A stretch of DNA of 64,000 bases from Alcanivorax sp. (GTDB taxonomy: Bacteria > Pseudomonadota > Gammaproteobacteria > Pseudomonadales > Alcanivoracaceae), in contig JAIUME010000002.1 in NCBI GenBank assembly GCA_022565695.1, positions 124,001-188,000 on the forward strand. The letters run 5' to 3'. Positions 6,641-24,169 of the stretch are shown in pieces. Each line of letters opens with the position of its first letter. Position 1 is the first letter of the stretch. The notes under the pieces were generated by a model. The model saw only the letters and a list, made by a program, of their open reading frames with translations, made no database searches and was not told the origin of the DNA. A program made the translations under genes and the position numbers.

Positions 6641-8077
6641 ATGATCATGGATTTGATCACGTTGTCTGTTCGGTGGATGGGGCGGTTTCCGAAAAAGATT
6701 GGCGGCACTTTCGTGCTATGTTCGGTCGTGCCGTTTCTGAGCATGGGCCTCAGCCTGGCCACGCCAGTATCTGCTTCAGCGAGTATGGTGCCGCTGGGTG
6801 ATTCAGCCCTTGCCGAGGTATCGGGAACCGGTCTTGCGCTCGGCTTCGAAGATCTTCGTATTGAGATGTCTCCTACTGGCTATATTGAAGCCACCGGCGC
6901 AACCGTTGCTGGCGGTTTGCCATATCGGCGTGCTGATGCACGTTGGTATGGGCTGTCCTTCACCGCTGCCTCAAGTGCCGGTGGTACCGGATACCACTTT
7001 GATGGCAGGCCCTGCGCCACCAATGACATCAGTTGCCCGATATCGGCGGGTGGCTTTCTGGTGCCCAACGACAATCCGTTAATTGTCAGGGTATGGGATT
7101 ATCAGGGTGTCAGCAGCAGTGGGCGGCAATACCTTCTGCGTGATGGAACCGGCGGTACAGACGTGCCAACAGTCCTGGAGCTGTTGATGCCCGACTGGCA
7201 TCAACCCCTGAAAGCCGCCTTCTGGGGCGAGATAGCGGTGGGGCTGGTTGACGGTATAGCGCCCGAGGGCGGCCGCACATACCCCGGCAGCGGCGGTACG
7301 CCCGCAAGCAGCCATTTTCTCCAGAGCCAGACGATACTGGATGAGGTGTCGCTTGCTGGCACCAATGTGCGGTTGATGCAGTTTGATCAACAGACTAATC
7401 CGGGCGGCAATGCCGATACGACCTTTGGTCTCAGTGCCAATCTGCGTATCACCGGCGATATGCGTTTCTCGGTAAATCAGACGGAAGACAGCCTGAATGC
7501 ACTGGGTATCGTACCGGGCTTTACCGATCGCGAAGGGTTGTATTTCAGTGGTGTGGATACGCACCTGCCGCTGGGGTCGCTGCATTATCAGGCGCTTATT
7601 GCCGATCAGGTACCTGGTGGTGGCGATTTCATTCTTGAGCTGACACAGATTCCCAATATCCAGGCAATTTACGAAGACTTCTACGCGTTTGCTCCGGGCG
7701 ACACTCAGGGCTACCAGCGCACCAATCGCCCTCAGCGCTATGAGGAGACCCACGGTCATTGGCGCATTGGCGATATGAATCCGGCCACGAACACCTGCAC
7801 CGGGCCTGGCACCTGCTCGGGCACGAGCGGTATCGTATTTCGTTCCGCGGACACATCATCAATGTTCACCGTTTACGCTGACCGCCCGAGTGAGGATGTG
7901 GATGCCTGGGAGGACAATTGCACCGGCGCCGACAGCTGCAACCCACCGCCGAGAGTGATGAACCCGCGTAATGCAGATACCTATCATCAGGTAAATATTG
8001 GTGATGTGAATGTCAGCGGTCTCCTGATACAGCACCTGCGTATCACGACCTGCTCAACGATCAATGGAGCCTGCTGA
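6641..8077 (+). CDS. secreted protein A of set 1, unknown function
   Basis: Not a recognised enzyme. From the ATG at 6641 the product has 478 residues. A long signal peptide (charged RFPKK, then a hydrophobic stretch ending ATPVSASA) is followed by the family motif MVPLGDSALAEVSGTGLAL. The body is rich in Gly, Thr, Asp and aromatic residues, as in beta-rich surface proteins, and has several Cys pairs. It is a paralogue of the protein at 12308: both carry FWGEI-VG, LQSQTI, GD-RFSV, a -HYQ- segment and GDFI-LT in the same order. It overlaps gene B (TGATG at 8075-8079), so translation is probably coupled. The family resembles proteins with the DUF6160-type N-terminus (assignment from memory). 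Export to the periplasm or surface is inferred from the signal peptide. Confidence 0.85.
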   Translation: MIMDLITLSVRWMGRFPKKIGGTFVLCSVVPFLSMGLSLATPVSASASMVPLGDSALAEVSGTGLALGFEDLRIEMSPTGYIEATGATVAGGLPYRRADARWYGLSFTAASSAGGTGYHFDGRPCATNDISCPISAGGFLVPNDNPLIVRVWDYQGVSSSGRQYLLRDGTGGTDVPTVLELLMPDWHQPLKAAFWGEIAVGLVDGIAPEGGRTYPGSGGTPASSHFLQSQTILDEVSLAGTNVRLMQFDQQTNPGGNADTTFGLSANLRITGDMRFSVNQTEDSLNALGIVPGFTDREGLYFSGVDTHLPLGSLHYQALIADQVPGGGDFILELTQIPNIQAIYEDFYAFAPGDTQGYQRTNRPQRYEETHGHWRIGDMNPATNTCTGPGTCSGTSGIVFRSADTSSMFTVYADRPSEDVDAWEDNCTGADSCNPPPRVMNPRNADTYHQVNIGDVNVSGLLIQHLRITTCSTINGAC

Positions 8078-8739
8078 TGCGTATTCCTGCCTTGCAATAC
8101 CACGTCCTGTTTGCGTGTCTGGCCGGCTCTTTCGGGCTTGCCGCCACCGCCGCATCGCTTCAGCCCCTGGAGGATGCGGAACTGGCTATGGTCACCGGCC
8201 AGGAAGGCGCGGTGCTGGAAATCAGTGTGCACTGGAATACCACAGCAGACGGCGCGCCACGCACGGATATCCCGGCAGTACTGAGGCGCTTCGCGCTGCA
8301 GTATGACGGCCGCCCCGGCGACTGGCTGGTGGCGACTGACTTCTATCTGCATCTGGATATTCCGGCGTTGGCGATCGACTCCGGCGACGGGTTGACCGAA
8401 GCAGAGTACGCCGCACTGCCTGAATACGGCGCGCCGGGTAAATCATCGCTGCTCGGCAGTTTCGACCCCTATGGTACGCCGCTGATGGAACTGCGTTTTC
8501 CCGAAGGCCTGATGATCGGTATGAACAACAGTCTCGCGATTACCCGTGATGTGATGGACGGTGGCGAGGTTCAGCAGTATGGCTGGGAACGAACGGATCT
8601 TCAGCCCTTTGTCGGTATTCGCATAGGCGATGCCAGCAACATGCCGGGGCAGCCGCCGGTGAATGGTACCGGAACCGGGCCAACACACATCAACCTTGAT
8701 GGTGTAGTGAACTTCTTTGGCTTTGGGGGGGAGCTGTAA
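8077..8739 (+). CDS. secreted protein B of set 1, unknown function
   Basis: Product of 220 residues with a clear signal peptide (MRIPALQYHVLFACLAGSF, cleavage near ATAAS) followed at once by the shared motif LQPLEDAELAMVTGQEGAV. The rest is predicted beta-rich, with no cysteines in the mature part and no known catalytic motif. The C-terminal part (GIRIGDASNMPG to VNFFGFGGEL) matches that of B' at 13597 (GAQIGDIQAGNN to DVYVFGY). The start overlaps the stop of gene A and the stop is 2 bp before gene C, so A-B-C-D is a tight operon. Function unknown. Confidence 0.85.
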   Translation: MRIPALQYHVLFACLAGSFGLAATAASLQPLEDAELAMVTGQEGAVLEISVHWNTTADGAPRTDIPAVLRRFALQYDGRPGDWLVATDFYLHLDIPALAIDSGDGLTEAEYAALPEYGAPGKSSLLGSFDPYGTPLMELRFPEGLMIGMNNSLAITRDVMDGGEVQQYGWERTDLQPFVGIRIGDASNMPGQPPVNGTGTGPTHINLDGVVNFFGFGGEL

Positions 8740-8741
8740 TC

Positions 8742-9842
8742 ATGAAATACCCATGGATTTTCCTGATCAGCGTTTTCCATTTCAGCTGTTTACCTGCGTT
8801 TGCCAGCATGCAAGCGCTTGAAGATGATGAGTTGGGTGCGGTATACGGGCAGGCAATGTTCGTGTCTGACTACCGACGCGGTACGCAAGGCGATGGTATC
8901 AGCGACAACGACTTCGGTTTCTACAGACTGATGCTCAATGCGAATGTTGAATTCAATCTCAATATCGACAAGTTGCAGTTGGGCTGCGGCGGCGTGAATG
9001 ACGGCTTGAGTCTGGGGTGCGATATCGACATCGACTATCTCAGGTTGATGGGTAGCTACGACGGCCCGGGCAGCAACCCCCTTCAGCCTGCAGGTGCCGG
9101 CCAGGCGGGCAACCCAGTGGAGAGCCTTTTCAGTTTGCTGCGGCCCTATGTGGAGTTTGCGGTGCTGAACCCGGAACAACCCGAATTCCGGGAAATTGCC
9201 GGCATCAAGGTCGGCAGCCAGCAGGGCGATGGCTTCCTCTCCATTGGCCGATACGACCCGGACTTGCCCGGGTGTACCAACGCCCCCAACAATCCGAACT
9301 GTCACATGGGCATAAACCAGTTCAGCGGCTATATGGATGTTGCGCTGTCAGGCGATGTATCCGGATGTGTTCAGGGCATCTTCGGGGGTTGCAATAATCT
9401 CGATCTGAGCTTCAGCGAGCAACAGGCTGTCACGGGTACGCGCATGCAAGCACCTGTTTTTTCTGTACCTGCGTCAGGCACTTTATGCCTGAATACACTC
9501 TTCGGTTGTGCAAATATCAATGTCACCATTTTTTCCCTGTTTCAGGATGATCTGCGCTTTATTCATGGGATCAAACTGGATGAGACGAGCGATTTCTTCA
9601 TGTCATTCCAGCGTGAGCGGATCACCTACCCTGCGTTCGAGCCTGGCGACTGGGCCGCGGCGCCCGCCAATACCGGATGGTGGATGAATCTTCCCGGTAT
9701 CGAGTTGTCGGGGCTGGATGTGGAGTACAACACTACGTTGTTTTCCGCAGTCGGTTCATTGTTCGGCACCACGCAATTGGTTAATTACGATGTGGGCCAG
9801 CGCCCGGCACACAACTGCTGGGGAGGGGCTCAGTTTTGTTGA
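8742..9842 (+). CDS. secreted protein C of set 1, unknown function
   Basis: Product of 366 residues. The ribosome site is the G-run/GGGGAG before the ATG. Signal peptide MKYPWIFLISVFHFSCLPAFA is followed by the motif MQALEDDELGAVYGQAMFV. The mature protein has many cysteines (about ten) and ends in HNCWGGAQFC, a terminal Cys pair that is also present in C' (DNCWGAATFC). Shared blocks with C': LNIDKLQLG / LNIDLLELG and I-G-K-V/L-R-L-G-FLSIG/PLSIG. The cysteines suggest disulphides formed in the periplasm. No known domain beyond the family N-terminus was recognised. Confidence 0.85.
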   Translation: MKYPWIFLISVFHFSCLPAFASMQALEDDELGAVYGQAMFVSDYRRGTQGDGISDNDFGFYRLMLNANVEFNLNIDKLQLGCGGVNDGLSLGCDIDIDYLRLMGSYDGPGSNPLQPAGAGQAGNPVESLFSLLRPYVEFAVLNPEQPEFREIAGIKVGSQQGDGFLSIGRYDPDLPGCTNAPNNPNCHMGINQFSGYMDVALSGDVSGCVQGIFGGCNNLDLSFSEQQAVTGTRMQAPVFSVPASGTLCLNTLFGCANINVTIFSLFQDDLRFIHGIKLDETSDFFMSFQRERITYPAFEPGDWAAAPANTGWWMNLPGIELSGLDVEYNTTLFSAVGSLFGTTQLVNYDVGQRPAHNCWGGAQFC

Positions 9843-9850
9843 GGCTGATA

Positions 9851-12043
9851 ATGCGCCCTCATAACAACGTGCTGCCCCGACGGGCCAAACGGCAGATGCC
9901 GGGTGCAGCGTCTCCTTTTGTGGCGGTCATGGTTGCTGCGACAAGCACCCTGGCCATCATGGGGCAGGCCCATGGGATGGAGCCGCTGGATGATGCCGCA
10001 CTGCAGGCTGTAGCGGGCCAGGATGGGTTGGTTGTTGCCATCAACGCAGAGCAGGGCATTAGTGCAGAGCAGGTGCGTTGGGAGACGGATGCCGGCATGA
10101 CGCTCGGTGATTATGGCGTGGGCGGTGCCAATGCGTCGGATTCCCTGGAAGCTTCCCTGATTCTTGATGGCGTGCACTGGGGCGGTATAGACAGCCAGGG
10201 CACCAGCGCGGCGCCACCAGCCCTGGCGGTCCGTGCGGAGCTGGATGTGGGGGTGATGCCCGGCGGCCCCGCATTGGGCGTGCGCGTGGATATAGATCGC
10301 GCCCGTCTGCTTATTGACGACGTGCGGCATGACGGCCTGGCCAGCGCCAGTTTTGGCAGTGTCGCCCTCGATAGCAGCCTCGATTTCGAGTTTGCCGGCA
10401 TGATAGACCATACACGTCAGGATGCCCGGCTACGCGTTGCTATCGAGGACGGGACCCTGTTCTATCGTCAGGGCGGTGCCGGCGCATCGGAACTGCTGCT
10501 GGACGATCTGGTTTTCCGGATGGACTTCGATCAGGGCACTGTCGGTATCGACGAAGAGGGCCTGATAGTCTCTGCCCCGCAATCCGAATTTGCGGTGTTT
10601 TTCGACCTCAAGCACCGTGCTGACCCCGGCGCTGACCCTCTTGATGCCTTCCGGCGGGACGATGCCCGCGGCATCCTCGGCTTCGGCTGGGAGGGCACGG
10701 TGGAAGACTTGCTGGTGCGCATCGGCACAGGGGGCGCCTGGTACAACGGCCATTACGATGACCCTGGCCAGCGCAGCGATGGCCTGCAAATACTCATGCA
10801 GCATGACCATGGCAGCGATTACGCCTGGGTCATTGGTGAAGCGGGCAGCCCCGGTATTGACGATGGCCAGGGTAACGTCTTTGCGGCACCGCGCACCCTG
10901 GTGCGGTTTGATAACTGGCAGCGGCTGGACGGCGCGCCACTGGGCAGCACTGGCACGCCATCATTCCGTTTGCCACTGACCATCGATGTACTCAACGCAG
11001 GGCAGGGCACAGGCGGCCTCTGCTTCGGCGCGGATGTATCGCCAGTGGGCGGGAGTTGCAGCGCAGGGGAACTGATCGAAGTGCCTGTGCGGGATGGTGC
11101 CCTGGCGGTGATGGTGCGTGATGCGTTCCTGCATGCCTACCCGACGCGGGTCTACGTGGACGTGGGGGGCGACTACACGCCTGGGGGACCGGTGGGGCCG
11201 GACGACGATATCTTCAACTGGGGGTTGATCACCACCCTCGGAGACATGGACGCCGATATCGTGCTGTATCCCGGCGCCGCAGATGGTGGCCGAGGGCTGC
11301 ATATGGATGCGGTGGTCACGGTGCAGTCCCATGGCAGCACGGCGCCCGGCTCAGGCGGCTGGCAGCAGAACACTCACCTCATGATCGCGGACACAGATCC
11401 GGCCGTGATGCGTGGCATCGGGCTGGTCAACGCCAATCTGTTGCTCAGTGTGGAGGCACTCTATCTGGATGTGACCACAGCAGGGATATCCCTGACGACG
11501 GATCAGGGCATGCGCCTGATGATCGATGGCCTGTTCGCCGGCGGGGATCTGGATAGCCTGGAACGCCCTGATTTGGTGGAGGCCTGGCGGCAGGTCATCA
11601 ACCTGGAGGCGCAAAGCTTCCGTCTGGATATCGCGCCCGGCGAGGAAGTGATGACAGTGGCTGACGGCACCCGCATCGGCAATACCTACCTTGCCTTTTC
11701 CGGGCACATACGCCTGGACGAAGGGGGCGGTACCTATATCTCCCTGGCGGAGCCGAACTATCCGGATGTGGATCTGCGACTGGCCAATATGCGCGGCGAT
11801 ATCGCCATCGATAGCGGTCGTCTGGATCTGCTCGCCAGGACGCAGGACCCATTTGATGAGGACGACCCGGTTGCCCGCCTGGTGATCAGCGCAGACCTGC
11901 TGCTCGGCCGCAGTGCGGGTTTGCCGAACATCGATGGCCGGGAAGCCGCGCTGAGTTCATCCCTTCAATTCGGTGGCACCCAGTTGATGGATATGGTCAT
12001 CCCCGGGGGCGGGCTCAACGTCAGCATCGGGCTGAGGAAGTAA
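9851..12043 (+). CDS. secreted protein D of set 1, large, unknown function
   Basis: Product of 730 residues from the ATG at 9851, 8 bp after gene C; a TTG at 9836 is an alternative. The signal region is arginine-rich (RRAKRQ) and hydrophobic, followed by MEPLDDAALQAVAGQDGLVV. The body alternates short beta-strand-like segments (I-D-R-A-R-L-L-I-D type) and reads like a long beta-solenoid or barrel-like surface protein; this is inference. D' at 22013 (minus strand) shares the 'RWE-D' start, FRLPLTID/LD, GG-CFG, and HAY-T- blocks. It is the last gene of the operon, before a small hairpin. Confidence 0.85.
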   Translation: MRPHNNVLPRRAKRQMPGAASPFVAVMVAATSTLAIMGQAHGMEPLDDAALQAVAGQDGLVVAINAEQGISAEQVRWETDAGMTLGDYGVGGANASDSLEASLILDGVHWGGIDSQGTSAAPPALAVRAELDVGVMPGGPALGVRVDIDRARLLIDDVRHDGLASASFGSVALDSSLDFEFAGMIDHTRQDARLRVAIEDGTLFYRQGGAGASELLLDDLVFRMDFDQGTVGIDEEGLIVSAPQSEFAVFFDLKHRADPGADPLDAFRRDDARGILGFGWEGTVEDLLVRIGTGGAWYNGHYDDPGQRSDGLQILMQHDHGSDYAWVIGEAGSPGIDDGQGNVFAAPRTLVRFDNWQRLDGAPLGSTGTPSFRLPLTIDVLNAGQGTGGLCFGADVSPVGGSCSAGELIEVPVRDGALAVMVRDAFLHAYPTRVYVDVGGDYTPGGPVGPDDDIFNWGLITTLGDMDADIVLYPGAADGGRGLHMDAVVTVQSHGSTAPGSGGWQQNTHLMIADTDPAVMRGIGLVNANLLLSVEALYLDVTTAGISLTTDQGMRLMIDGLFAGGDLDSLERPDLVEAWRQVINLEAQSFRLDIAPGEEVMTVADGTRIGNTYLAFSGHIRLDEGGGTYISLAEPNYPDVDLRLANMRGDIAIDSGRLDLLARTQDPFDEDDPVARLVISADLLLGRSAGLPNIDGREAALSSSLQFGGTQLMDMVIPGGGLNVSIGLRK

Positions 12044-12045
12044 AG

Positions 12046-12066
12046 TGTTACGTTGAGTAACATTTT
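12046..12066 (+). terminator. weak terminator after gene D
   Basis: Stem TGTTAC / GTAACA with a 5-base loop, followed by TTTTG. The stem is only 6 bp, so termination would be partial. The rest of the 264-bp gap to A' holds a consensus TTGACA at 12161-12166 but no convincing -10 box at the right distance. Confidence 0.5.
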
Positions 12067-12307
12067 GTAGCGGTCGATTCTGAGTGCAGGCCTTGAAAGG
12101 CCCGACCCAACGGTCAGATAAGGAGAAAAAAGGCCCACGGAATGCTCGTAACATATTGATTTGACATAGCCAAGTACATGCCTGTTGCCCCATTCGGTGC
12201 GCGCCTGTAGCCTGATCTCATAAAGAAGGTCGGGCAGTTTTTCGTGTTTGAGTCGCCCGGCCCAGAGAAATATGCCGTAGAACGACTACAAAAAACGAGG
12301 CATAACA

Positions 12308-13600
12308 GTGCGTATTCTTGGGTTTCCGGGGGCATCTCGCCGCTTTTTCATGACAGTTCTTTTCGGTGCTGCGCTGACGCCTGCGGCCGGTTTTGCCGTG
12401 CCTGGCGGCATGGTGGCGCTGGAAGACGAGGAAATGGCCGGGGTGTCTGGTGCTGGACTGGCTATTGCAGCACACAACTTCCATTTTCAGGCTGCCCCGA
12501 CCAGCTATATCTGGATCACCGGGCGCCAGCCGGATCCGGCTGCGATAGCGGCTGGCTGGAATCGAGGCGATTTATTTTACTATGGTACTGCATGGACTGG
12601 GGGGCAAACCGGTCCAGGCACGGGTACGACTTTTCATGAGCCCGGTGTGGCTGGCGGTTGCAATCAGAATGAGGCATTGCGCTGTCCGATAGGTGTATCG
12701 GGTGTGCCGAGCTTTGCATCTGTGCTGAATCCCTACGTGTTCAGAGTGTATGAATATCCAGGGGTGGATTATCAGGGCATGTACCGGCAGGGTAGCAATA
12801 TGCCCTCGGTTATGGAATTGATTGGCCCCAGCAAAACAGATCGGTGGCGCTGGAGCTTCTGGGGTGAAATCGAAGTTGGCCGTAGTGGTACATCGCTGGG
12901 AAATCCGGCAGATAATGGCAGTGGCCTCCTGCAGAGCCAGACCATCATTCATGGTAGCCCCACAACAACGGATGGCCGCCCTGCAGTAATCCGGTATCTC
13001 CGAACACAGCAAGGGAATGGAGGAAACCCTTCGGCAGATGGGTCATTCGGCATAATTTACGAAAGTGCCTTGTCAGGCGATTTTCGATTTTCTGTTGGTC
13101 AGAACTTCGGGAGCCCTGATGAGAAAGGGTGGGTCCCGCATTTCAATGATGCAGAAGGCTTTTACTTCCATAACGTTGATGCATTTATTCCAATTGGCCG
13201 CATGCATTATCAAACACTACAGCTGGAGCCGTCGGGCACAACTGGAGATTTCATCATAAGGTTGACGCCAATAGCGCCAACAGCCAGTCAGAATCAGAGC
13301 TCGCTGGCCTTTCAAATGATTTACAACGAGTTCTACTGTGGAAATATTGATGGCGCGGCATGCGCTACAACAACTGTAACCACGCCAGACGGAAACAATG
13401 TCGTTAAGATTCAGAACCCGAATGTCGAGACACAAGGTTATATTCGCTGGGGAGACTTTTCATCGAATTTCACTGCGCCTGATAATGGAATTTCCTTCAG
13501 AGACAGGGATAACAATGTAACCCGACATCTAGGCGTTTCACGCATCGAGGGGCTGAGGATTCAGTCGCTGACCTTGACAACGCAAGGGGCAGGATCATGA
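12308..13600 (+). CDS. secreted protein A' of set 2, unknown function
   Basis: Product of 430 residues starting at a GTG preceded by GAGG at 12296-12300. The signal peptide (RRFFMTVLFGAALTPAAGFA) is followed by the family motif MVALEDEEMAGVSGAGLAI. It aligns with protein A over most of its length (see that entry), including the PTSYIWITG / PTGYIEATG segment just after the motif. It contains paired cysteines. Its stop overlaps the B' start by ATGA. Codon use is more AT-rich in the second half than in set 1, which fits separate acquisition or divergence. Function unknown. Confidence 0.85.
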   Translation: MRILGFPGASRRFFMTVLFGAALTPAAGFAVPGGMVALEDEEMAGVSGAGLAIAAHNFHFQAAPTSYIWITGRQPDPAAIAAGWNRGDLFYYGTAWTGGQTGPGTGTTFHEPGVAGGCNQNEALRCPIGVSGVPSFASVLNPYVFRVYEYPGVDYQGMYRQGSNMPSVMELIGPSKTDRWRWSFWGEIEVGRSGTSLGNPADNGSGLLQSQTIIHGSPTTTDGRPAVIRYLRTQQGNGGNPSADGSFGIIYESALSGDFRFSVGQNFGSPDEKGWVPHFNDAEGFYFHNVDAFIPIGRMHYQTLQLEPSGTTGDFIIRLTPIAPTASQNQSSLAFQMIYNEFYCGNIDGAACATTTVTTPDGNNVVKIQNPNVETQGYIRWGDFSSNFTAPDNGISFRDRDNNVTRHLGVSRIEGLRIQSLTLTTQGAGS

Positions 13601-15667: not shown

Positions 15668-15669
15668 CC

Positions 15670-17262
15670 ATGAGAATTCTGCAAGGTATTGGTACTTCAA
15701 GAGGAGGGCTGGCAGTAGCCCTTTTCCTGGTATTGCTACCGCTTTATGTGGGGCTGGCCTACCTCTCTCGTGGCGGCGATGTCTGGTGGCATATAGATTT
15801 TGTCTCCGGCGGCAATGTGTTGTGGGGGGATGATGCCTATCGATACTACCTGGCAAGTCTGGCATTCTCTTCGTCTGACATATACTTCTTCAGTTTCGCA
15901 CTCCCGTTGGCGGTTTTCATGGACGGTGTCCTGGTCGCGCTATTTCATGACCAGTACCCGATAAGGGTTGTAAAAGCGGCTCTTCTGGCCGGCTCAGCGG
16001 TGCTTAGCTACCTTTCATGTTGCAGAGTGACAAGCCGAAAATATGCTCTGGTGTGCTGTCTGGCAGTTTATACGTTTCCACTTTATATCTTTGTTGGTAT
16101 CAGTTTTTACGGTGAGGCATGGTTCATTATCCTTTTCTCTCTGGCTCTGTTTCTTTACTTTAAAGAGCGAATTCTATGGGCGGCTCTGGTTATTTCCATT
16201 CTGCCGCTATTCAGGATAGAGGGGCTCTTCGTGCTGATCGCCTTTTCAGTGGTGGTTATTCTCAGGCATGATGTCAAAAGTTTTCTGCTTCTCTATACAC
16301 CAGGCGGAATATATTTTGTTTTTATCATGTTGATGGGGCCGGGTCTTGTCGAGTTTATAAGCTGGCGTTCGCCGATGAACGACGTTTACGATGCTGCGGA
16401 TGTCTGGTACCAGTTCAGTGGCGCCCGATTTCTTGGAACAATGAATCTTTTTCTATTTGTTCCTTTCGTTATCGGCTTTATGATTCTAGCCCGTCATCGA
16501 TGGGTTATGCTGTCTGTCTTGGCTATTGTTTCTTTCTTTTCGATCCTTCCTTATTTGGGGAAAGCAAGCTTTGAGCCTCGTTATCTTGTTATGGCAATGC
16601 CTGCGTTGCCGATAGGTCTTGCGGCGTTTATCCAGTACATAAAGGGGGAGGGGGCTCACTGGCTTGTAAAGCCAGTATCTAGCTACGTCACATTTTTCGT
16701 TTTCCTTTCGATATTCATCTTTAATGCTAAAAGTGTCCATGTAGTAGATGATTTTGTATCTCACGTATTAAGCCACGGTAGCATTCCGGAAGAGGTGAAA
16801 AAGCAGCCTTTGGCCATGAGCACTTACTTTGTAGGCATGCCTCGCGAGGAGATTGAAAGCTATCAGGAATTGTCCGGCGCCATTCAAGCGGCAATTAAAG
16901 AGCATAAAGAAATAAAGACCCTTATTGTAAGCAATTTCCTTGTTTACTATTTTCTTGACCTGTCAAGTGTGCCTGATGATGTGATGCCGGTATTCGCAAT
17001 TTTCGGTCGAGGGCGGCTTGATCCTATATTGGGCCCTTCATTGTCAGCGGGCTACTTCCATAGACCGCCATACTTCTCGTACTTTTCGCTGTCGTATCCT
17101 TATCATGGAGACGACCTTATCCTGTATGTGGATCACTTACCGATAGAGGGATACCCTCTACGCTGGAGCGTGGCCGGGCATCACATAGCCATTGTGGCCG
17201 GGGAGAAGCTAACAGCTGATCAGGTTGAAAATTGGCGCATGCGCCCTTTCGTTGGCATGTGA
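15670..17262 (+). CDS. polytopic membrane protein, GT-C-like glycosyltransferase
   Basis: Product of 530 residues with about ten hydrophobic segments spread over the first 400 residues and a soluble C-terminal tail. The first external loop carries acidic pairs (GGDVWWHIDF and GDDAYRYY). The latter resembles the DDAY motif in the first periplasmic loop of GT-C transferases, which use polyprenyl-phosphate sugars. This is a fold-level guess; a specific substrate cannot be named. It follows C' by 2 bp and is notably AT-rich (25 G/C in the 60 bases 16141-16200). It may glycosylate a lipid or a secreted protein encoded nearby. Confidence 0.6.
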   Translation: MRILQGIGTSRGGLAVALFLVLLPLYVGLAYLSRGGDVWWHIDFVSGGNVLWGDDAYRYYLASLAFSSSDIYFFSFALPLAVFMDGVLVALFHDQYPIRVVKAALLAGSAVLSYLSCCRVTSRKYALVCCLAVYTFPLYIFVGISFYGEAWFIILFSLALFLYFKERILWAALVISILPLFRIEGLFVLIAFSVVVILRHDVKSFLLLYTPGGIYFVFIMLMGPGLVEFISWRSPMNDVYDAADVWYQFSGARFLGTMNLFLFVPFVIGFMILARHRWVMLSVLAIVSFFSILPYLGKASFEPRYLVMAMPALPIGLAAFIQYIKGEGAHWLVKPVSSYVTFFVFLSIFIFNAKSVHVVDDFVSHVLSHGSIPEEVKKQPLAMSTYFVGMPREEIESYQELSGAIQAAIKEHKEIKTLIVSNFLVYYFLDLSSVPDDVMPVFAIFGRGRLDPILGPSLSAGYFHRPPYFSYFSLSYPYHGDDLILYVDHLPIEGYPLRWSVAGHHIAIVAGEKLTADQVENWRMRPFVGM

Positions 17263-17338
17263 TGTTGTTCGCCGGTGCCATTATGGTATGTTGTGGTGTA
17301 AGCGCGTTGTCTGTTGTTCCGGCTGGAGTAAGCCGCCG

Positions 17339-17968
17339 ATGTATACCGTTCCGAAAAGTACCGTTCCGAAAAGCTATATTCAGCTGATGCGCTTTCTTTT
17401 CTCTGGAAGTGGAGTTTGGGCCATCATGGCTGTGGCAGTACTTGCCATAGCAGGTAAAACGCTCTGGGGGGCATGGAGCGCGCTGGATGCTATTGTACTC
17501 TTGTTTTTTTTCATATTCAGGGGGGTGATCGAGTGGGTTATTCACTCATGGCTTTATCATGCCAATCGTATCCCTGTGATCAGTATCAGTCTCAAGACGG
17601 AGACTCATCGCCAGCATATATACCATCACGAAAATCCCTCTGATCTTTCACATCTCCTTATTACGTTCAAAGGAGTTCTTGTTCTTGGTGCCGTTTTCTT
17701 TTTGGGGCCTCTAATTTTGACACGGAGCCTGGACTTCTCCGCAACCGTGGTGCTTTCCTTCATGCTGGTGGGTTTGACCATAGAGAGCCTCCATCTGGTA
17801 TGCCATTCAGATATTGCTCACACCACCCGAGTAATGAAACGCCTAGTGTGGCTGCATCGGTATCACCATGAAGTTGATGGCAAGAATTTCTATGGCGTTA
17901 GCTCGTCGTTCGGAGATCGTATTTTTGGCACATATCCATCCGTAAATGAAGGGAAAAATGCGCGCTGA
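17339..17968 (+). CDS. fatty acid hydroxylase / sterol desaturase superfamily membrane protein
   Basis: Product of 209 residues from the ATG at 17339 (GGAG 10 bp upstream); a frame from a TTG at 17225 would overlap the previous gene. The histidine clusters of this diiron membrane family are present: His69 and His74 in EWVIHSWLYH, His90/93/96/97 in THRQHIYHH, then a CHSDIAH segment and WLHRYHHEV. Four hydrophobic segments surround them. Members hydroxylate or desaturate fatty acyl chains, sterols or carotenoids. The next gene overlaps its end. The N-terminus contains a tandem duplication (TVPKS twice). Confidence 0.8.
   Translation: MYTVPKSTVPKSYIQLMRFLFSGSGVWAIMAVAVLAIAGKTLWGAWSALDAIVLLFFFIFRGVIEWVIHSWLYHANRIPVISISLKTETHRQHIYHHENPSDLSHLLITFKGVLVLGAVFFLGPLILTRSLDFSATVVLSFMLVGLTIESLHLVCHSDIAHTTRVMKRLVWLHRYHHEVDGKNFYGVSSSFGDRIFGTYPSVNEGKNAR
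17344..17373 (+). repeat. in-frame 15-bp tandem duplication
   Basis: TACCGTTCCGAAAAG occurs twice in direct succession (17344-17358 and 17359-17373) and encodes the repeated pentapeptide TVPKS at the start of the hydroxylase-like protein. It is probably a recent replication slippage. Confidence 0.9.
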
Positions 17969-18920
17969 ACGTATCGAATCAAATGATCTACTGGCTATGG
18001 ATCTCAGCGCACTGCTGATGGATCATCCTCTGTATGGATTTCCGGAACTGCATGTTGAAGACATTGCCTCGATATGTCGTGCGGATCTGATCCGACTTGT
18101 CGCAGCGGGTGCTCATTGCTTTGCTGTAAGAGACGGCGGTGGGGCTGTTCAGGGCGTCGCATGTATCTTTAGTATGGAATGGGACACCCAGCACTTTTCC
18201 ATGCCGATGTACAGAGTGCAGATCGTCACGGACCGCGATATCTCGAGTTCGGCAGTTGCCGCAATGCTCCGAGCGATTCTTGAGGCATCATGCCTGCGAT
18301 GCGGCGGGCATGTCTCGGCGGAGGTGAATGTCGATAACTACACAGTTCTTAATGTACTCTTGGAGGCAGGGTTCGAGATCCTGGATTTCCGGAGAACCTA
18401 CGTAACGAACAGAATGAGAGCTGATGTTGACTTCGTTCGAATGAGGAGCCGCGTTCGACCTTACCAAGTCAGCGATTACGAAGCAGTGATGTCTATCGTG
18501 AGGAATACTGATTTCCCTAGCCGCTTTGGGCGTGATTCAGCACTTGATCAGGGGCTGGTCAAAACAATGTATACGAGCTGGTTTGATGGCTTGTTGTCCG
18601 GCACGGGGAAGACCTCGAGCGTCATGGTCTATGAAAGGGCGGGCGAAATCATCGCCTGTGGCGGGATTGGTGAAAAGGATTTTTCCTACGCGGGAGTTGC
18701 CCGGAAAATGAGAACCAATAGCCTCTATACGAGCAAAAAGGGCGCTGTAGGGGCGTATGCGCCCGTACTTTACCAGCTCATTATCGAAGCGTTGCAGACG
18801 CATGATATGGTTGAAACCACTGCCTCACTGAACAATAGGACGGTCTGTCGTATTATCGAAGGATTCAGATCATATAAAAGTGCATCAAGCTCATGCTCCC
18901 TGAGGCTTCTCGTACGATGA
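17958..18920 (+). CDS. GNAT acetyltransferase, WecD-like
   Basis: Product of 320 residues from the ATG at 17958 (AAGGGA just before it); the ATG at 17946 is an alternative. The N-terminal half has the 'WDTQHFSMPMYRV' type segment seen in WecD/RffC-like acetyltransferases (D-S-x-F-F-G-x-x) and a 'LLEAGFEILDFRRTYV' strand-helix typical of GNAT domains. The C-terminal half looks like a second, divergent GNAT-like domain ending ASLNNRTVCRIIEGFRSYKS. It may N-acetylate an amino sugar. It overlaps the hydroxylase gene at its start and the desaturase gene by ATGA at its end. Confidence 0.65.
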   Translation: MRAERIESNDLLAMDLSALLMDHPLYGFPELHVEDIASICRADLIRLVAAGAHCFAVRDGGGAVQGVACIFSMEWDTQHFSMPMYRVQIVTDRDISSSAVAAMLRAILEASCLRCGGHVSAEVNVDNYTVLNVLLEAGFEILDFRRTYVTNRMRADVDFVRMRSRVRPYQVSDYEAVMSIVRNTDFPSRFGRDSALDQGLVKTMYTSWFDGLLSGTGKTSSVMVYERAGEIIACGGIGEKDFSYAGVARKMRTNSLYTSKKGAVGAYAPVLYQLIIEALQTHDMVETTASLNNRTVCRIIEGFRSYKSASSSCSLRLLVR

Positions 18921-19969
18921 GTGCCGGCTTGGAAAGTGTTAGTCCTGCCCGGTTGCTCTCTCTGGAAGAGGGGCTTCAAGAGATTCAGTCACGCATCAGT
19001 GCTTCTGTGGGTGATGCGGATCTGGATTATATATATACGGTTCAACGATGGGTCTTTATCCTGGAGGTGGCAGGGCGCCTCCTTATTTTTATGTTTTTTT
19101 TCCCTCCGGCATATATTCTGGGTGTTCTGTTTCTTTCCGTATCAAAGATAATCGAGAATACCGAGCTGGGTCATAATCTGATGCATGGTCAATATGACTG
19201 GGCTGATGACCCGTTACTAGCTGGCAGCAGCTATGAGTTTGATGTGGTGGCGACCTCAGACAACTGGCGCTCGGGGCACAATGATCATCACCATACGAAT
19301 ACTGGTATTGAGGAGCTGGATAATGATATTGGTGTCCTGCGCTTTTCGGAGAACCAGGCTTGGCGCTGGTATCATCTACTCCAGTTGCCAGTAGCTTTCG
19401 TATTTGCCATGCTTTCGCAGTGGGGGGTGGCCATTCAGGATATGCGCATAGGCGACCTGTCGGAGGGAAGGATATCGGTTTCTTCCTTCTGGAAGTATCG
19501 ATTTTCGCCGTTCCTTAAAAAGAGCTTCCGAAAGCTGGCAAAGGACTATGTCATTTTCCCCGCTCTCTCCGGTCCCTTCTTTCTTCAGGTTCTTGTTTGT
19601 AATCTGGTTGCTAATTGCCTAAGGAATGTTTGGGTCTGGCTGATTATCGCATGTGGCCATTGCGTAGGCGGGATCACCTTGTACAAAAAGGCGGATGTTG
19701 TCGGATTGCCTGAGCAACACTGGTTTGTTCGTCAAATCACGAGTTCGGCTAATTTCGCCACCGGGAAACTAATGACAATCATGACGGGGCACCTGGGCTA
19801 CCACATAGAGCATCATCTTTTTCCGACCGTTCCCGCTAGGCATTACCCGGCTATTTCTGAAGAAGTCAGGGCAATCTGTCGGGAGTATGCGCTACCATAT
19901 AATGACAGGCCGCTTGGGGCTCGGATCGGTGAAGTTCTGGTCAGGCTTGCCCGTTTTTCTTTTCCATGA
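18917..19969 (+). CDS. membrane fatty acid desaturase
   Basis: Product of 350 residues; I chose the ATG at 18917, which overlaps the previous stop (ATGA), over the ATG at 18893. The three histidine boxes of acyl-lipid or acyl-CoA desaturases are present: HNLMH (His86, His90), HNDHHH (from His121) and HIEHH near the C-terminus followed by LFPTVPARHYP. Hydrophobic segments lie between boxes 1 and 3. It resembles linoleoyl-CoA-type desaturases of actinobacteria and marine gammaproteobacteria. It acts in the cytoplasmic membrane and probably modifies acyl chains used in the neighbouring pathway. It converges on, and overlaps by 29 bp, the next gene. Confidence 0.9.
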   Translation: MSAGLESVSPARLLSLEEGLQEIQSRISASVGDADLDYIYTVQRWVFILEVAGRLLIFMFFFPPAYILGVLFLSVSKIIENTELGHNLMHGQYDWADDPLLAGSSYEFDVVATSDNWRSGHNDHHHTNTGIEELDNDIGVLRFSENQAWRWYHLLQLPVAFVFAMLSQWGVAIQDMRIGDLSEGRISVSSFWKYRFSPFLKKSFRKLAKDYVIFPALSGPFFLQVLVCNLVANCLRNVWVWLIIACGHCVGGITLYKKADVVGLPEQHWFVRQITSSANFATGKLMTIMTGHLGYHIEHHLFPTVPARHYPAISEEVRAICREYALPYNDRPLGARIGEVLVRLARFSFP

Positions 19970-20957
19970 GTAGAGAAAAGAATAGCAATCCTCCCGTAAT
20001 GAGATACAGATAAAGTGTGAAAGCTCTCCAGATCAGAATCGATGACCCGGCAAGAAGAGCGCCCAGCTTTGAAGTAAGCATGAGTCCCGCACTGATCTCT
20101 GTTCCGCCAAGCCCTCCTGGAAGCAAGGTCATGTGTCCAATCCCCATGGCTGCGAGCTGGATGGCCCCCGACTCAGACCAAGGTATTTCGCCACCTAATA
20201 TGTAAATGACTACATGCATTGTGGAAAGGAAGAGCAGCCAGTAAGCAATGGATGCTCCCCACACAAGGATCGTTTCTTTCAGAGAAAGCTGGGACAGTGT
20301 TGTTAGCGCCTTTTGAAGCTTGAGTGTTGCTCTGAGCATTTTCCTTCTTTGCCGGTGTGAGAGATGGAGCAATCTCATCAGGGGATCAAGCAGCACCCCA
20401 ATACACCTTAAATTCGTTATGGTGAGTCTGACAATGGTAATTATGCTTATCATGGCGACCAGGAGAACACTGAGTGCCAGTGCGGTGCCCTGAGTACTGG
20501 TAAAAATGGCACCTGCCATAATGAATATGCCGAGGACCAGCAGCAAAGAGATCACATCCATGATAGCTGTGATTGCAAATATGGCGAGACTGGTCTGTAC
20601 TGCGACATGATGACGTGCAAGGAAGATCGTTGCGGCAACCGGAGCGCCTGATCCTGCAGGTGTGGTTTTTGATACGAACTCGGTGGCCATGTATATACGC
20701 AGTATTGACCAGTAACCGAGATGATGTCCCGAGCTGCGCAGCAGCGCAGCGACTCTCAAAATGTTCAGATGCCATACCACGACCATGATGGCAAGCAGCG
20801 CAGCGACATGTATTGCATTGAGCTGTCTGGCTGCGATCAAGGCCTCCTTACCGCCGATAAGTGCGGGAATGGCGGCGCCGGCAAGGAACATCAGAACAAG
20901 GGTTACAACAATACGGCGCCGGGGTGGAAGGGACCCGATGACTAGCGCGGCCCTCAA
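19941..20957 (-). CDS. flippase-like membrane protein (LPG synthase TM / YbhN-type)
   Basis: Product of 338 residues with about eight hydrophobic segments. The motifs LPGGLGGTEISAG near the C-terminus and SKTTPAGSGAPVAA in the middle mark the lysylphosphatidylglycerol synthase transmembrane family (UPF0104/YbhN type). Members are proposed lipid or glycolipid flippases or permeases. There is no C-terminal synthase domain. Start: TTG at 20957, overlapping the stop of the epimerase gene (TTGA); no ATG lies nearer than the end of the first membrane segment, so the start is uncertain. The 3' end overlaps the desaturase gene. Confidence 0.8.
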   Translation of the reverse strand: MRAALVIGSLPPRRRIVVTLVLMFLAGAAIPALIGGKEALIAARQLNAIHVAALLAIMVVVWHLNILRVAALLRSSGHHLGYWSILRIYMATEFVSKTTPAGSGAPVAATIFLARHHVAVQTSLAIFAITAIMDVISLLLVLGIFIMAGAIFTSTQGTALALSVLLVAMISIITIVRLTITNLRCIGVLLDPLMRLLHLSHRQRRKMLRATLKLQKALTTLSQLSLKETILVWGASIAYWLLFLSTMHVVIYILGGEIPWSESGAIQLAAMGIGHMTLLPGGLGGTEISAGLMLTSKLGALLAGSSILIWRAFTLYLYLITGGLLFFSLLMEKKNGQA

Positions 20958-21985
20958 GAAGCGTAATCCAGGGGCGCGTGTTCTGATGTATCGGAAACTG
21001 CAACGTCTGAATCAAGCACTCGGATGTACCAGTCAAGCGTGTAGCAGTGCATTCCGGTGCGTACTTCCCGGGCGTTGAGGCGTGAGATCAGCTCGTCTGT
21101 GGCGCCGGCGATGGTATGTGCCGGTTGCCAACCAAGGAGTGCTCTCACCTTGCTGAAGTTGACTGCATAACTTCGTGCATCGTTGGTGCCTTCATAAGTC
21201 ACCCGCGGGAGGCAACCGCTGATGTGCTCATACGCCTGCTGCACTTGAGAGGCGATATCCTTGACGCGCAGGTTGAGGGCCTCTGAACCAATGTTGAATA
21301 CATGACCATTAATGGATTCTGCCGGCGCATGGAGTACGCATGCCAGGGCGTCAGACACATCTCTGACATGAATGAGTGGTCTGTTTTGCAGGCCATTTCC
21401 GTGGATAGTAATCTCTGAATGCTGCCATGCACTGTAAATCATCGCATTGACCACAAGGTCCAGCCGCATTCTCGGAGAGTAACCGAAGACGGTGGGTAGC
21501 CTCAGCGCCACGACACTGAATCTGTCATCTTGCAGCGCAAGTATGCCTTGCTCTGCCGACAGGTTTGCCCGGGCGTATGTGGTCAGGGGGCTGGTCTGGC
21601 TGGCTTCATCCATAAGGCCATGCTGATTGCCATACACGCTGCAGCTGGATGGCAGGATGTAGCGTTTTACTGCGGCCTGTCGGGCCAGGCGTGCGGTTCT
21701 TATTCGCGCTTGTACATTAACGGCTTCGGTGAGAGCCTGGAATCGCTCCCCGGCCGGATCGTTGGAGATCGCCGCCAGGTCAATGACGGCGTCTACGCCG
21801 ACGAGTTGAGCGAGGCTGATAGAGCGCGTGTCTTGGCAGAGCCTGACCAGCCCAGGATGATGGGGTAGGGTGAGCTCACCAAAATAGAAACGGTCGACGA
21901 CGGTGATCTTGTAGTTCAGCGCCAGCAGGTGACGGACAAGAATGCTGCCAATGTACCCGCCGCCACCGGTAACTAGTATATGCAT
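20954..21985 (-). CDS. NAD-dependent epimerase/dehydratase, extended SDR
   Basis: Product of 343 residues. The Rossmann motif TGGGGYIGS is at residues 6-14, and the SSCSVYG strand and RLPTVFGYSPRMR sugar-binding region are present, as in UDP-glucose 4-epimerase relatives that make nucleotide sugars. Odd point: the catalytic Y-x-x-x-K reads YARAN, with AAC for the Lys, so the usual proton-relay lysine is missing. The enzyme may be altered in activity or specialised. It lies 27 bp after D' and overlaps the flippase-like gene, forming a D'-epimerase-flippase operon on the minus strand. Confidence 0.85.
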   Translation of the reverse strand: MHILVTGGGGYIGSILVRHLLALNYKITVVDRFYFGELTLPHHPGLVRLCQDTRSISLAQLVGVDAVIDLAAISNDPAGERFQALTEAVNVQARIRTARLARQAAVKRYILPSSCSVYGNQHGLMDEASQTSPLTTYARANLSAEQGILALQDDRFSVVALRLPTVFGYSPRMRLDLVVNAMIYSAWQHSEITIHGNGLQNRPLIHVRDVSDALACVLHAPAESINGHVFNIGSEALNLRVKDIASQVQQAYEHISGCLPRVTYEGTNDARSYAVNFSKVRALLGWQPAHTIAGATDELISRLNAREVRTGMHCYTLDWYIRVLDSDVAVSDTSEHAPLDYAS

Positions 21986-22012
21986 TGTCCATGGACTCGA
22001 TATGGTCAGGTA

Positions 22013-24169
22013 CTAGTTCTGCGGCCTGATTGATACGGAGCTATATACTACCCCAGACGGGATCGCAATGCTGCCGAAGTTGTCATTGGCTCCGAGGGAG
22101 ATATCACCCCTCAGTACACTGTTTTCGATGGCTGTGTCGCCCAGCAGTATGTAGTTGGAAATGCTCAGTTCCGGGCGGCCGTGTGATGTTTCCTGGCTGG
22201 TCTTCAGCTCAATGCGACCATCTTTCCAAAGCAGTGCCCCTTCAACGTTATGGATGCGCCACGCAGCGGTCGGAACAGAGGGCTCAGCGATGGAGAGATA
22301 GGCGTTGCCATTGAAATCGAACAACCCCTCGAATGGCACGTAGTTCTGGCCGCCATTGGCGCCGAGGACAAAGACAAAGCGGTCTGTTTCGAGGTTGACG
22401 TCAAGCAGAAGGCCTACCACCGGCGCCTCAAGATTTGCAAGATCGCCGCCGCCGAAGACACCGCGGAAGTTGTACTGTGCTGCTACCCCCTGTCCTTTAC
22501 GGTCAGTCTCCAGCCAGACGCCGGGCGCCAGCGTGTGCCGCAGGGCATTGCCATCGAGCAGGTAAGTGGAGGCGGTGGAGGGATCAACCAGTCGCACGGA
22601 CAGGTCTTCAACGCGCCATAGGACGTCGGCGTTGATGAGGCCTATGCCAAAGCCAGAATCACCGGCATCGGTGTCTGCAATCATGAAGTGGGTATTGGTA
22701 GCCCAGCGAGCTCGGGGGTCGCTGGCCGGATCGCCGGGTGTTACATCGGCGAAATTGTTCTGCGCGGCGTGCCAGTAGCCAGGCGACTGGAAGCCCAGCA
22801 CGACATCAGCGCGGAAGCCGACGTCGGAGCCGGGCTCCTCGGGGCGCATGAAGATGTTGCCGTCAAACTGACCGAAGGTATACAGCAGGCTCCAGTTAAA
22901 CTCGTCAGTCTTGGAATGCGGCCCCCAGGCGCCGTTCACATACTCGCGCTCCCAAACCTCGACACTTGTGTTGTAGGCATGCAGGCCGGCGTCGCGGATT
23001 AGCATGGCGAGCGTGTTGTCGTCAGGCGCGAGAAACACATAGTCGCCACCAGCATTGCCGCAACCGCCTGCCGTCAGCGCGCCACCTGACGTGGCACCCC
23101 CAAAGCATATGCCGCCAGGGTTGTCCCCCAAGCGGAGCGCATCAAGCGTCAGAGGAAGGCGGAAATCATGATCGGCCATCGCTACACCGGGGCGGGCAGT
23201 GCGTTGTCCGGAGCCATTGAAGCCGGTCTCGGCGCCCAGGCGTTGCCAACCCGAAAACTCGGCGCGGGCACGTGCCTGGTGTGGCTGCCCGATAATCCAG
23301 ACAAAATCCTCACCAAAATCAAGCTTCAGATCAGTATTCAGCCCCTGTGTTCGGTCATTCAGGTTGTAGAAATCTCCGGTACTGCTCTGCCAGGCGCCGC
23401 CGCTGGCGATGTTTAGCGACGCATTGCGCAAATTCCCACGCCAGCCTGTATGCACCAGACCATCATGGTTGCCCTTGTCGTAAGGATTGGTAGTGGTCGG
23501 AGCAAAGCTCAGGTCAAATGTCAGATCAAAATCGGCTTCAGCCGCAGAAATGAAAATACCTTCATCATTGAGGCCCACGGTGCCTCGCGGGATGTCCACG
23601 CCAATGACGAAGTCGAGCAAACCCAGTTCCGGCGCACCGCCGACATCTCGCTGGCGCCAGAAGATATCGCCCTCACTGGTGTAATTCAGGATGGCCTGGT
23701 CGTAGTCACTGTTGAATGGGCCTCCCTGATTGACCAGGAGAAAGGAGCCGCTCGTGTTGATGGCAAGAGATCCCATGGTGCTATTCGGCGCGCCGCTGTG
23801 TGACATGCCGCCGATACGGGCCTGCAGGTCCGACCAGCTACCGGTCAGCATCACATAGGGGTTGCCGCTTGCATCGGAGGCGACATCCAGAGTGAAGTCT
23901 GCTTTACCCGCCCAGTCAACCGACAGGTCCTTGAGGATCAGAGACGCTGCCTGGGCCGCATTTTGTGCGTCCATTTCCCAGCGAAGCTCGTCGGCGGTGA
24001 TGGGGCCATCGGTTTCGAGGGAAACGGCAAGGCCATCACGTCCCACCGTTTCAGACAGCTCTGTGTCCGTCAGGGGCTGCATCGAGGTAGCATAAGAGGC
24101 GCAGGGAAGAATCAATGCGCAGAAACAGATGTAGCAGAGCGGGTTCTGGAGCGTCTTGGGAGATGTCAT
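22013..24169 (-). CDS. secreted protein D' of set 2, large, unknown function
   Basis: Product of 718 residues from the ATG at 24169; a GTG at 24181 would add four residues. A signal peptide (LCYICFCALILPCASYA) precedes MQPLTDTELSETVGRDGLAV. It is a full-length paralogue of D at 9851: both continue with 'I-A-ELRWE-DA', then share DFRLPLTLDAL / FRLPLTIDVL, GGICFG / GGLCFG, RDAGLHAYNT / RDAFLHAYPT and THFMIADTD / THLMIADTD. It sits on the opposite strand, separated from A'-B'-C' by six genes, whereas D directly follows C. The two genes after it encode sugar and lipid functions. Confidence 0.85.
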   Translation of the reverse strand: MTSPKTLQNPLCYICFCALILPCASYATSMQPLTDTELSETVGRDGLAVSLETDGPITADELRWEMDAQNAAQAASLILKDLSVDWAGKADFTLDVASDASGNPYVMLTGSWSDLQARIGGMSHSGAPNSTMGSLAINTSGSFLLVNQGGPFNSDYDQAILNYTSEGDIFWRQRDVGGAPELGLLDFVIGVDIPRGTVGLNDEGIFISAAEADFDLTFDLSFAPTTTNPYDKGNHDGLVHTGWRGNLRNASLNIASGGAWQSSTGDFYNLNDRTQGLNTDLKLDFGEDFVWIIGQPHQARARAEFSGWQRLGAETGFNGSGQRTARPGVAMADHDFRLPLTLDALRLGDNPGGICFGGATSGGALTAGGCGNAGGDYVFLAPDDNTLAMLIRDAGLHAYNTSVEVWEREYVNGAWGPHSKTDEFNWSLLYTFGQFDGNIFMRPEEPGSDVGFRADVVLGFQSPGYWHAAQNNFADVTPGDPASDPRARWATNTHFMIADTDAGDSGFGIGLINADVLWRVEDLSVRLVDPSTASTYLLDGNALRHTLAPGVWLETDRKGQGVAAQYNFRGVFGGGDLANLEAPVVGLLLDVNLETDRFVFVLGANGGQNYVPFEGLFDFNGNAYLSIAEPSVPTAAWRIHNVEGALLWKDGRIELKTSQETSHGRPELSISNYILLGDTAIENSVLRGDISLGANDNFGSIAIPSGVVYSSVSIRPQN

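Follow-up and report, generated by a model that had tools for sequence, protein, structure and literature searches.

What is the role of an N-terminal motif that is shared by eight predicted secreted proteins of four different kinds? The question is raised by a stretch of DNA of 64,000 nucleotides from Alcanivorax sp. (assembly GCA_022565695.1, contig JAIUME010000002.1, positions 124,001 to 188,000; G000:C2:124001-188000 in our numbering), which is referred to here as the window. It contains two sets of four genes, set 1 (A-B-C-D) and set 2 (A'-B'-C'-D'), and the original prediction was that they form a duplicated unit of secreted paralogues. The most plausible reading of the motif is a cleavage leader of the C39 double-glycine type, located behind a Sec signal peptide, and we consider it probable, at roughly 0.7, that a Fil secretion pathway resembling Fap has A-D and A'-D' among its clients. 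The elements computed here are the register of the leader, its repetition on unrelated protein bodies, its co-occurrence with the peptidase FilB, the homology of FilB to FapD and of FilC to FapF, and a filament that starts at the predicted cut.

The shared leader and the four protein families

All eight open reading frames (ORFs) are present, and each starts with a signal-peptide-like segment followed by the motif, as had been claimed. Set 1 occupies 6677-12043 and A'-B'-C' occupies 12308-15667, both on the plus strand, and D' lies at 22013-24169 on the minus strand. A (6677..8077, 466 amino acids from the ATG given, with a start further upstream possible) pairs with A' and A'' and has the leader LGDSALAEVSGT (-12 to -1) at 6794..6829. 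B (8077..8739, 220 amino acids) has LEDAELAMVTGQ at 8167..8202, C (8742..9842, 366 amino acids) has LEDDELGAVYGQ at 8817..8852, and D (9851..12043, 730 amino acids) has LDDAALQAVAGQ at 9986..10021. In set 2, the leaders are LEDEEMAGVSGA at 12419..12454 for A' (12308..13600, 430 amino acids, GTG start), LDDTDMAGITGY at 13672..13707 for B' (13597..14325, 242 amino acids), LNDEEMSSVVGQ at 14435..14470 for C' (14303..15667, 454 amino acids) and, on the minus strand, LTDTELSETVGR at 24038..24073 for D' (718 amino acids from the ATG at 24169).

The published register of C39 leaders is Leu-12, Glu-8, Leu-7 and Val-4 (PMC6363468). In the tag L-x-D-x-x-L/M-x-x-V-x-G-Q the L is at -12, the L/M at -7, the V at -4 and the G at -2, and the spacing (L-12, E-8, L-7, V-4, G-2) is that of the published register, except that the tag is placed after a Sec signal peptide. 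The leader is roughly 16 residues long, and its clearest form is [LM]xx[LM]xDxE[LM]xxVxGQ. Within the window, L-12, L/M-7 and G-2 are found in all eight leaders, V/I-4 in seven and E-8 in five, and the residue at -1 is T, Q, Q, Q, A, Y, Q and R for A, B, C, D, A', B', C' and D' respectively. By inspection, a signal peptide and a FilA-type leader occur in 8/8 proteins of the window and in 13/13 known proteins of the genome. The first description of the motif was incomplete, in that the tag has the register of a C39 leader, and its likely partner, a stand-alone C39 peptidase, is encoded outside the window. Leader spacing and peptidase homology are both shared with the C39-ABC exporters (LahT, ComA, PCAT1), which differ in that the peptidase here is stand-alone, the substrates are signal-peptide proteins of about 100-870 amino acids, and the residue at -1 is mostly not Gly, Ala or Ser.

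The tag has only two labels in Pfam and NCBIfam, one being DUF6160 and the other the N-terminal part of ‘putative pilus system protein FilA’. A DUF6160-type N-terminus had been suspected, and this was partly supported. The curated whole-protein cut-off for DUF6160 (PF19657) is 27 bits; D (36.1 bits) and B' (29.6 bits) are above it, A, B (24.9 bits), C and D' (22.8 bits) are below it, and A' and C' have no match. Pfam matches other than DUF6160 were absent from the A-D proteins of the window at E ≤ 0.1. The N-terminal part of D is FilA-like, scoring 34 bits with the FilA model, far under its cut-off of 220. Chaperone-usher proteins and type IV pilins were rejected as candidates, given that no Pfam pilin domain was found in the window proteins.

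The same leader was examined in two further genomes, G138 and G251, which have 15 scored DUF6160-leader proteins each (from 17 and 22 candidates), in frames of 101-254 amino acids that are scattered over the contigs and have mostly unrelated bodies. A motif search without a preset pattern was made with 27 of the 30 DUF6160 matches of these genomes, those of G138 in loci L065, L079 and L082 being left out. The resulting motif reads AxA followed by E, then L/M-15, M/L-12, D-10, E-8, L-7, V-4, G-2 and Q-1, so that the leader follows immediately on the apparent site of Sec cleavage. The information content is 2.5-4.8 bits from -15 to -1, and then 1.5, 1.3, 1.0, 0.8, 0.7 and about 0.5 bits. Such a drop right after -1 is how a removable leader would be expected to look. 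In a spacing test on 86 A-D proteins, 32 were at the exact spacing, and 32 also for -15. Column counts were also made for FilA and A-D; here positions -12, -10, -7, -4 and -2 were fixed by the search pattern, several A-D rows are misplaced in the signal peptide, and about 1-2 of the 31 FilA rows are false ‘TGQ’ matches.

Behind the leader, the proteins fall into four families. The blastp E-values are 2e-39 to 1e-42 for A/A', 1e-21 for C/C' and 3e-70 for D/D', and the bodies past residue 62 score 60 (A), 33 (C) and 97 (D) standard deviations (SD) above 60 shuffles. These three of the four proposed pairs are therefore clear. B/B' is weak by itself (blastp E 3e-7 for the whole protein, 2.3 SD for the body alone), and is made firm by a third copy (B'/B'', E 3e-10) and by profile comparison with other genera. 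The third copy belongs to a set A''-B''-C''-D'' outside the window (G000:C1, L019 5349-11316), and B'/B'' and its remaining pairs back the four families. The suggestion of a duplicated four-gene unit is thus confirmed, with one set more.

What did not survive is the description of the four members as paralogues, as the bodies of A, B, C and D have no kinship among themselves detectable by blastp or profile comparison. Profiles with the N-terminus trimmed were compared between three groups, namely own (Alcanivoracaceae-type, with G007), far (Pseudomonas/Marinobacter-type) and Acinetobacter-type (which includes SAT93). The probabilities for own against far are 98% (A), 97% (B), 98% (C) and 84% (D), and for own against Acinetobacter-type 99%, 97%, 100% and 98%. 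Between Acinetobacter-type and far they are 86% for A and 98% for C, and weak for B (15%) and D (6%). All 36 comparisons of unlike families gave 9% or less, even though in some proteins (e.g. A', B'', A. nosocomialis C and A. venetianus C) the pattern used for trimming hit the signal peptide, leaving the leader on these bodies. Each family was recovered across genera and like matched like only, with unrelated bodies behind a common N-terminus. As judged from these comparisons, A-D is therefore a conserved unit of four different proteins sharing one N-terminal tag, rather than a single family of paralogues.

Units of these four genes turn up again in Alcanivorax, Pseudomonas, Marinobacter and Acinetobacter. 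Of 20 regions, selected because each holds a large DUF6160 protein, 16 have four such genes together, in keeping with the idea of one unit. All four genes pass the family hidden Markov models in 5 of these 16 regions; in the other 11, A or D, and sometimes B, was assigned by synteny and leader. Three genes are found together in L194, L208 and L212 (the last cut by a contig end), and one in L210. Complete regions from Pseudomonas and Marinobacter have the genes in the order C-A-B-D. In L196 (Acinetobacter venetianus), which is counted among the 16, a 494-amino-acid ORF lies between C and A at 12669-14153, and its start appears by eye to resemble a dinucleotide-binding oxidoreductase. A class-wide search with a three-row D profile gave matches only in G000 and G007. 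This profile was taken as too narrow, and synteny and profile-profile comparison were therefore used instead.

The Fil-like peptidase and its distribution

A FilA-B-C-D-like operon lies upstream of the window at L018 6934-15038, between 10.6 and about 2.5 kb from the window's first position, and its FilB gene is 8.6-9.4 kb upstream. The NCBIfam scores are 133 bits for FilA (cut-off 220), 300 for FilB (475), 357 for FilC (630) and 782 for FilD (970). Since these are under the cut-offs, the L018 proteins are treated as Fil-like. FilB is a stand-alone C39 protein of 270 amino acids with an N-terminal hydrophobic segment and no ABC part, and is probably exported. It is related to FapD (116 bits with the FapD model), and a search with its profile picked up C39 structures, 6mpz among them (E 8e-8). 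Q61, C67, H152 and D168 do not vary among the six FilBs compared. FilC has a relative in FapF, which exports the Fap amyloid (73 bits). FilD (L018 10085-11785) is FadL-like and has weak similarity to PorV/PorQ, an outer-membrane family of type IX secretion (38.8 bits, cut-off 90). The genome has two more C39-domain proteins (L020 4338-5324 and L021 3854-4990), each with what looks like a lipoprotein start and, by eye, a repeat-like C-terminal part.

The pathway we propose would run as follows. Each A-D protein would be exported by Sec and its signal peptide removed, as its sequence suggests. The leader would then form the new N-terminus and be recognized by FilB, for which the register, the homology and the co-occurrence argue. 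FilB would cut behind G-Q or G-x. The mature proteins would leave through the outer-membrane pore FilC with FilD, by analogy with Fap. Once at the cell surface they would assemble, and would most probably form part of a FilA-type fibre or decorate one.

Leader proteins and FilB are largely found in the same genomes. Among 321 genomes of the class, DUF6160 is present in six, which are exactly the six with the best FilB matches (E ≤ 2.1e-60, the next being 7.5e-38; chance of coincidence 7e-13). Among 244 genomes of the order, with the FilB threshold set at the E-value gap between 3e-58 and 7e-43, 31 have both, one has FilB only, two have DUF6160 only and 210 have neither (Fisher 1e-35, uncorrected for kinship). 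Best C39 matches between 7e-43 and 6e-19 occur in 12 genomes, none of them with DUF6160. In the family to which the window belongs, six genomes have both, and four, all of one genus, have neither. The best 80 of 558 FilB relatives come from Alcanivoracaceae, Moraxellaceae, Marinobacter, Hahella, Pseudomonas and others, and DUF6160 was found in 40/40 of their genomes that were searched and in 0/14 controls. At these 80 loci FilC is present in 80 (78 directly downstream), FilD in 79, FilE in 38 and FilF in two. A FilA-type protein is near FilB in 49 of the 80 by pattern, and in L089 by eye. The pattern had been widened, since its first version missed the Acinetobacter FilAs, and the wide form gives false matches, to a protein with repeated ‘WGALIGALTGQ’ and in L118 (the latter not included in the 49). 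In L024 (637-1353, G210), a 238-amino-acid signal-peptide protein with an LSDEELSQHDG motif lies between a DUF6160 protein and FilB.

These data bear on a second explanation, in which FilB serves FilA only, A-D are ordinary exports and their N-terminus is a functionless relic of a FilA fusion. The D protein of Acinetobacter nosocomialis does have about 170 residues of FilA similarity, and the Pseudomonas and Marinobacter sets are located away from filB. Against this, the unrelated bodies of A, B and C keep an identical leader spacing across genera. Further, no FilA was found beside FilB in the Marinobacter loci examined, and several DUF6160 proteins are dispersed elsewhere in those genomes, so if FilB acts on them it acts in trans. 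We regard this as the least likely of the alternatives considered here.

The Acinetobacter Fil system is the closest to what is seen here. FilA is reported to be a subunit of the Fil fimbriae in Acinetobacter strain Tol 5 (PMC3498257, PMC11784438), where the FilA band is said to have been identified by Edman degradation (PMC3498257). The operon order is the same, the FilA-B-C-D families are related, and the FilA leader is common to A-D; the differences are that the scores here are under the NCBI cut-offs, and that the bodies of A, B and C are not FilA and are located in separate sets. The Fap system (Pseudomonas FapA-F) likewise has a periplasmic C39 peptidase and a FapF-type pore, with the leader of FapE in the same register and a variant in FapA. 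It differs in that no NCBIfam FapB or FapC match was found among the proteins scanned here, the clients here are many, often large, and dispersed, and the residue at -1 is mostly Q here and R/K there.

In Fap, FapD is a periplasmic C39 peptidase whose catalytic Cys is required for secretion of FapC (PMC5557850). Its target was called unclear in 2017 (PMC5557850) and yet to be determined in 2018 (PMC6173800), and the Fap proteins are described in both papers as without canonical C39 sequences. A 2025 review names FapE and FapF as the proteins that FapD is thought to process (PMC12822426). In four Pseudomonas fap operons we find the leader in FapE in 4/4, and in FapA, also in 4/4, a variant whose G is at -1 instead of -2. 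In Pseudomonas loci L227-L230 the leader-like motif of FapA (of the type L[STA]DxD[FI]Ax[VI]) follows a longer N-terminal stretch.

In other genomes of the class, the neighbours of FapD-like C39 genes are signal-peptide proteins with LSDPELAQMRGRFL, VSNQELDQLRGGFY and similar sequences. The published leader pattern behind a signal peptide is found in 11 of 46 ORFs beside such genes (in 11 of 19 loci), against 0 of 708 controls; a looser pattern gives 14/46 against 23/708. In the spacing test 11/46 were at the exact spacing, the next best was 6 (hydrophobic -15), and the others were 4 or fewer. The pattern followed the published consensus but was written after the neighbour proteins had been seen, the C39 ORF went unrecognized in 5 of 24 loci, which were therefore left out, and the 46 ORFs include chance frames. 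The FapE model matched three of ten FapD-neighbour proteins tested, below its cut-off.

The resemblance of FilB and FilC to FapD and FapF suggests a further reading, namely that A-D are functional amyloid subunits like FapB and FapC. It would suit the composition of the twelve A-D proteins, which behind the leader are Lys-poor and Gly-rich. None of the NCBIfam Fap subunit models (FapB, FapC, FapE) matches any of the eight window proteins (amyloid repeats were not scanned for), and the identification as Fap subunits was rejected. FapB and FapC from the four fap operons showed no leader within their first 110 residues. In addition, the number of cysteines behind the leader of A-D ranges from 0 to 12 and is even in 12/12, which suggests folded, disulfide-bonded exported proteins. 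We therefore consider amyloid subunits quite unlikely.

A solved filament and the question of cleavage

The nearest thing to experimental evidence for a FilA filament without its leader is PDB entry 9xfv (‘bacteria pilus (like)’, karst cave, 25 chains), for which no publication was found in our literature search. Its chain A matches a 14-row profile of Pseudomonas-type FilA with E 4e-13, and is homologous to it at both ends. The chain starts with DGVSIAGD, residue 1 aligning right behind TGQ, which is the predicted mature N-terminus, and it ends at the C-terminus of FilA. It is thus a homologue of FilA, not of A-D, and supports the cut site without identifying the responsible protease. The surface-assembled structure that had been proposed gains support from this, because FilA bears this leader too and has a homologue in the pilus-like filament; for A-D themselves such a structure is inferred.

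A model of FilA from an Alcanivoracaceae relative was made with a 27-row alignment (pLDDT 76). The leader appears as a low-confidence helix at 36-42 and ends at Q44 (-1), and a beta domain begins at residue 47, two residues after the point where the mature protein is predicted to start. Foldseek comparison of this model with the PDB gave nothing at E ≤ 0.001, and 9xfv ranked fourth with a probability of 0.38. Because this match is not significant, the link between 9xfv and FilA rests on sequence.

The question is then whether the motif is cut at all. It could instead stay on the protein for targeting or docking, as would a helix binding FilC, FilD or a chaperone-like FilB, or a segment that docks into the fibre. 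Inactive C39-like domains are known in type I systems, where some bind without cutting (PMC6363468). Two further observations would suit an uncut motif, and weigh against the leader reading: conservation in FilA, and partly in A-D, runs on past Q-1 to G+2, I+3 and +5, and among the eight window proteins only A' has Gly, Ala or Ser at -1, P1 being otherwise Q, T, Y or R and so mostly not small.

Other points on the same side are as follows. D' has T at -4, C'' has A in place of G at -2, and A'' and C'' escaped the DUF6160 search. Published mass spectrometry found complete N-terminal processing for FapE alone among the Fap proteins (PMC5557850) and saw none for FapA, although FapA too has a leader-like motif. 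The start of 9xfv at D may reflect the density, or a deposited sequence that was cut there; a 27-row FilA profile (A6) did not find 9xfv, and searches with the D profile and with an Acinetobacter D gave no match to a solved filament. An AlphaFold model of D, made from two rows, was unusable (pLDDT 29.5). All four Fil proteins of the genome score under the NCBI cut-offs. Finally, FilB occurs without DUF6160 in G418 (89% complete) and DUF6160 without a clear FilB in G365 (75% complete) and G417 (one weak match), while G505 (65% complete), one of the 12 genomes with intermediate C39 matches, has an uncounted FilB-like fragment (E 8.5e-30) and no DUF6160.

Cleavage is nevertheless the better account, and an uncut motif, the strongest of the three alternatives, is still unlikely. 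The Cys, His, Asp and Gln of FilB are invariant in the six sequences, conservation falls directly behind -1 in the 27 dispersed clients, the solved FilA-like filament begins after the motif, and FapD needs its catalytic Cys for the secretion of FapC, as noted above.

Gene neighbourhood, duplication and significance

As originally described, D' is on the opposite strand and is separated from C' by a block of lipid and sugar genes at 15643..21985, which is a conserved neighbour rather than a client. It codes for a 539-amino-acid membrane protein (no Pfam match), a fatty acid hydroxylase, a 324-amino-acid protein (no Pfam match), a fatty acid desaturase, an LPG-synthase-like membrane protein and an epimerase. 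Positions 24389-25114 are counted with the block beside set 2 as well, and a GT2 gene is also listed in it. Of the ATGA-type overlaps reported for the A-B-C run, only that of A'/B' is genuine; A and B overlap by one base (TGATG), B and C are separated by two bases, and B' and C' overlap by 23 bases. Adjoining the region at 25676-27001 is a 441-amino-acid protein with a signal-peptide-like start, in which no C39 leader was seen and which matched nothing in Pfam or NCBIfam at E ≤ 1.

Phylogenetic trees give 100% support to a grouping of A', C' and D' with their counterparts in Alcanivorax sp. 1008 and L204, which for D' takes in L203 as well; the B tree leaves the sets unresolved. From this placement we infer that the sets were probably duplicated before the split of the Alcanivorax sp. 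1008 and L204 lineages. The lipid/sugar block is largely kept in Alcanivorax sp. 1008 (L232), where it adjoins an A-B-D-C set that is followed by a further A-C-B-D set; the desaturase was not found in this counterpart.

Within the excerpts consulted, and with subscription papers and preprints mostly outside the search, no paper was found that describes a Sec-plus-C39 leader for Fil clients, or that names the A, B and C proteins or their leader; DUF6160 itself is mentioned in one paper of the literature searched. A wider interpretation is that Gammaproteobacteria use a two-signal export code, in which a Sec signal peptide is followed by a C39-type leader that an exported peptidase of the FapD/FilB class removes before passage through a FapF/FilC-type pore. 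The code would be carried by many unrelated and dispersed proteins, and Fil/Fap would then be a general sorting route rather than a system for a single fibre, with the A-B-C-D unit as its main large cargo. The balance of evidence tips slightly towards this.

The finding may reveal the substrates of a little-understood class of periplasmic proteases that builds surface fibres. With the leader defined and its scissile bond predicted, the target of FapD-type peptidases becomes testable, and the leader rule offers a way to find clients of the Fil/Fap route. One scheme would explain both DUF6160 and the ‘putative pilus’ Fil genes, and 9xfv, a solved filament without a name, becomes linked to a known operon.

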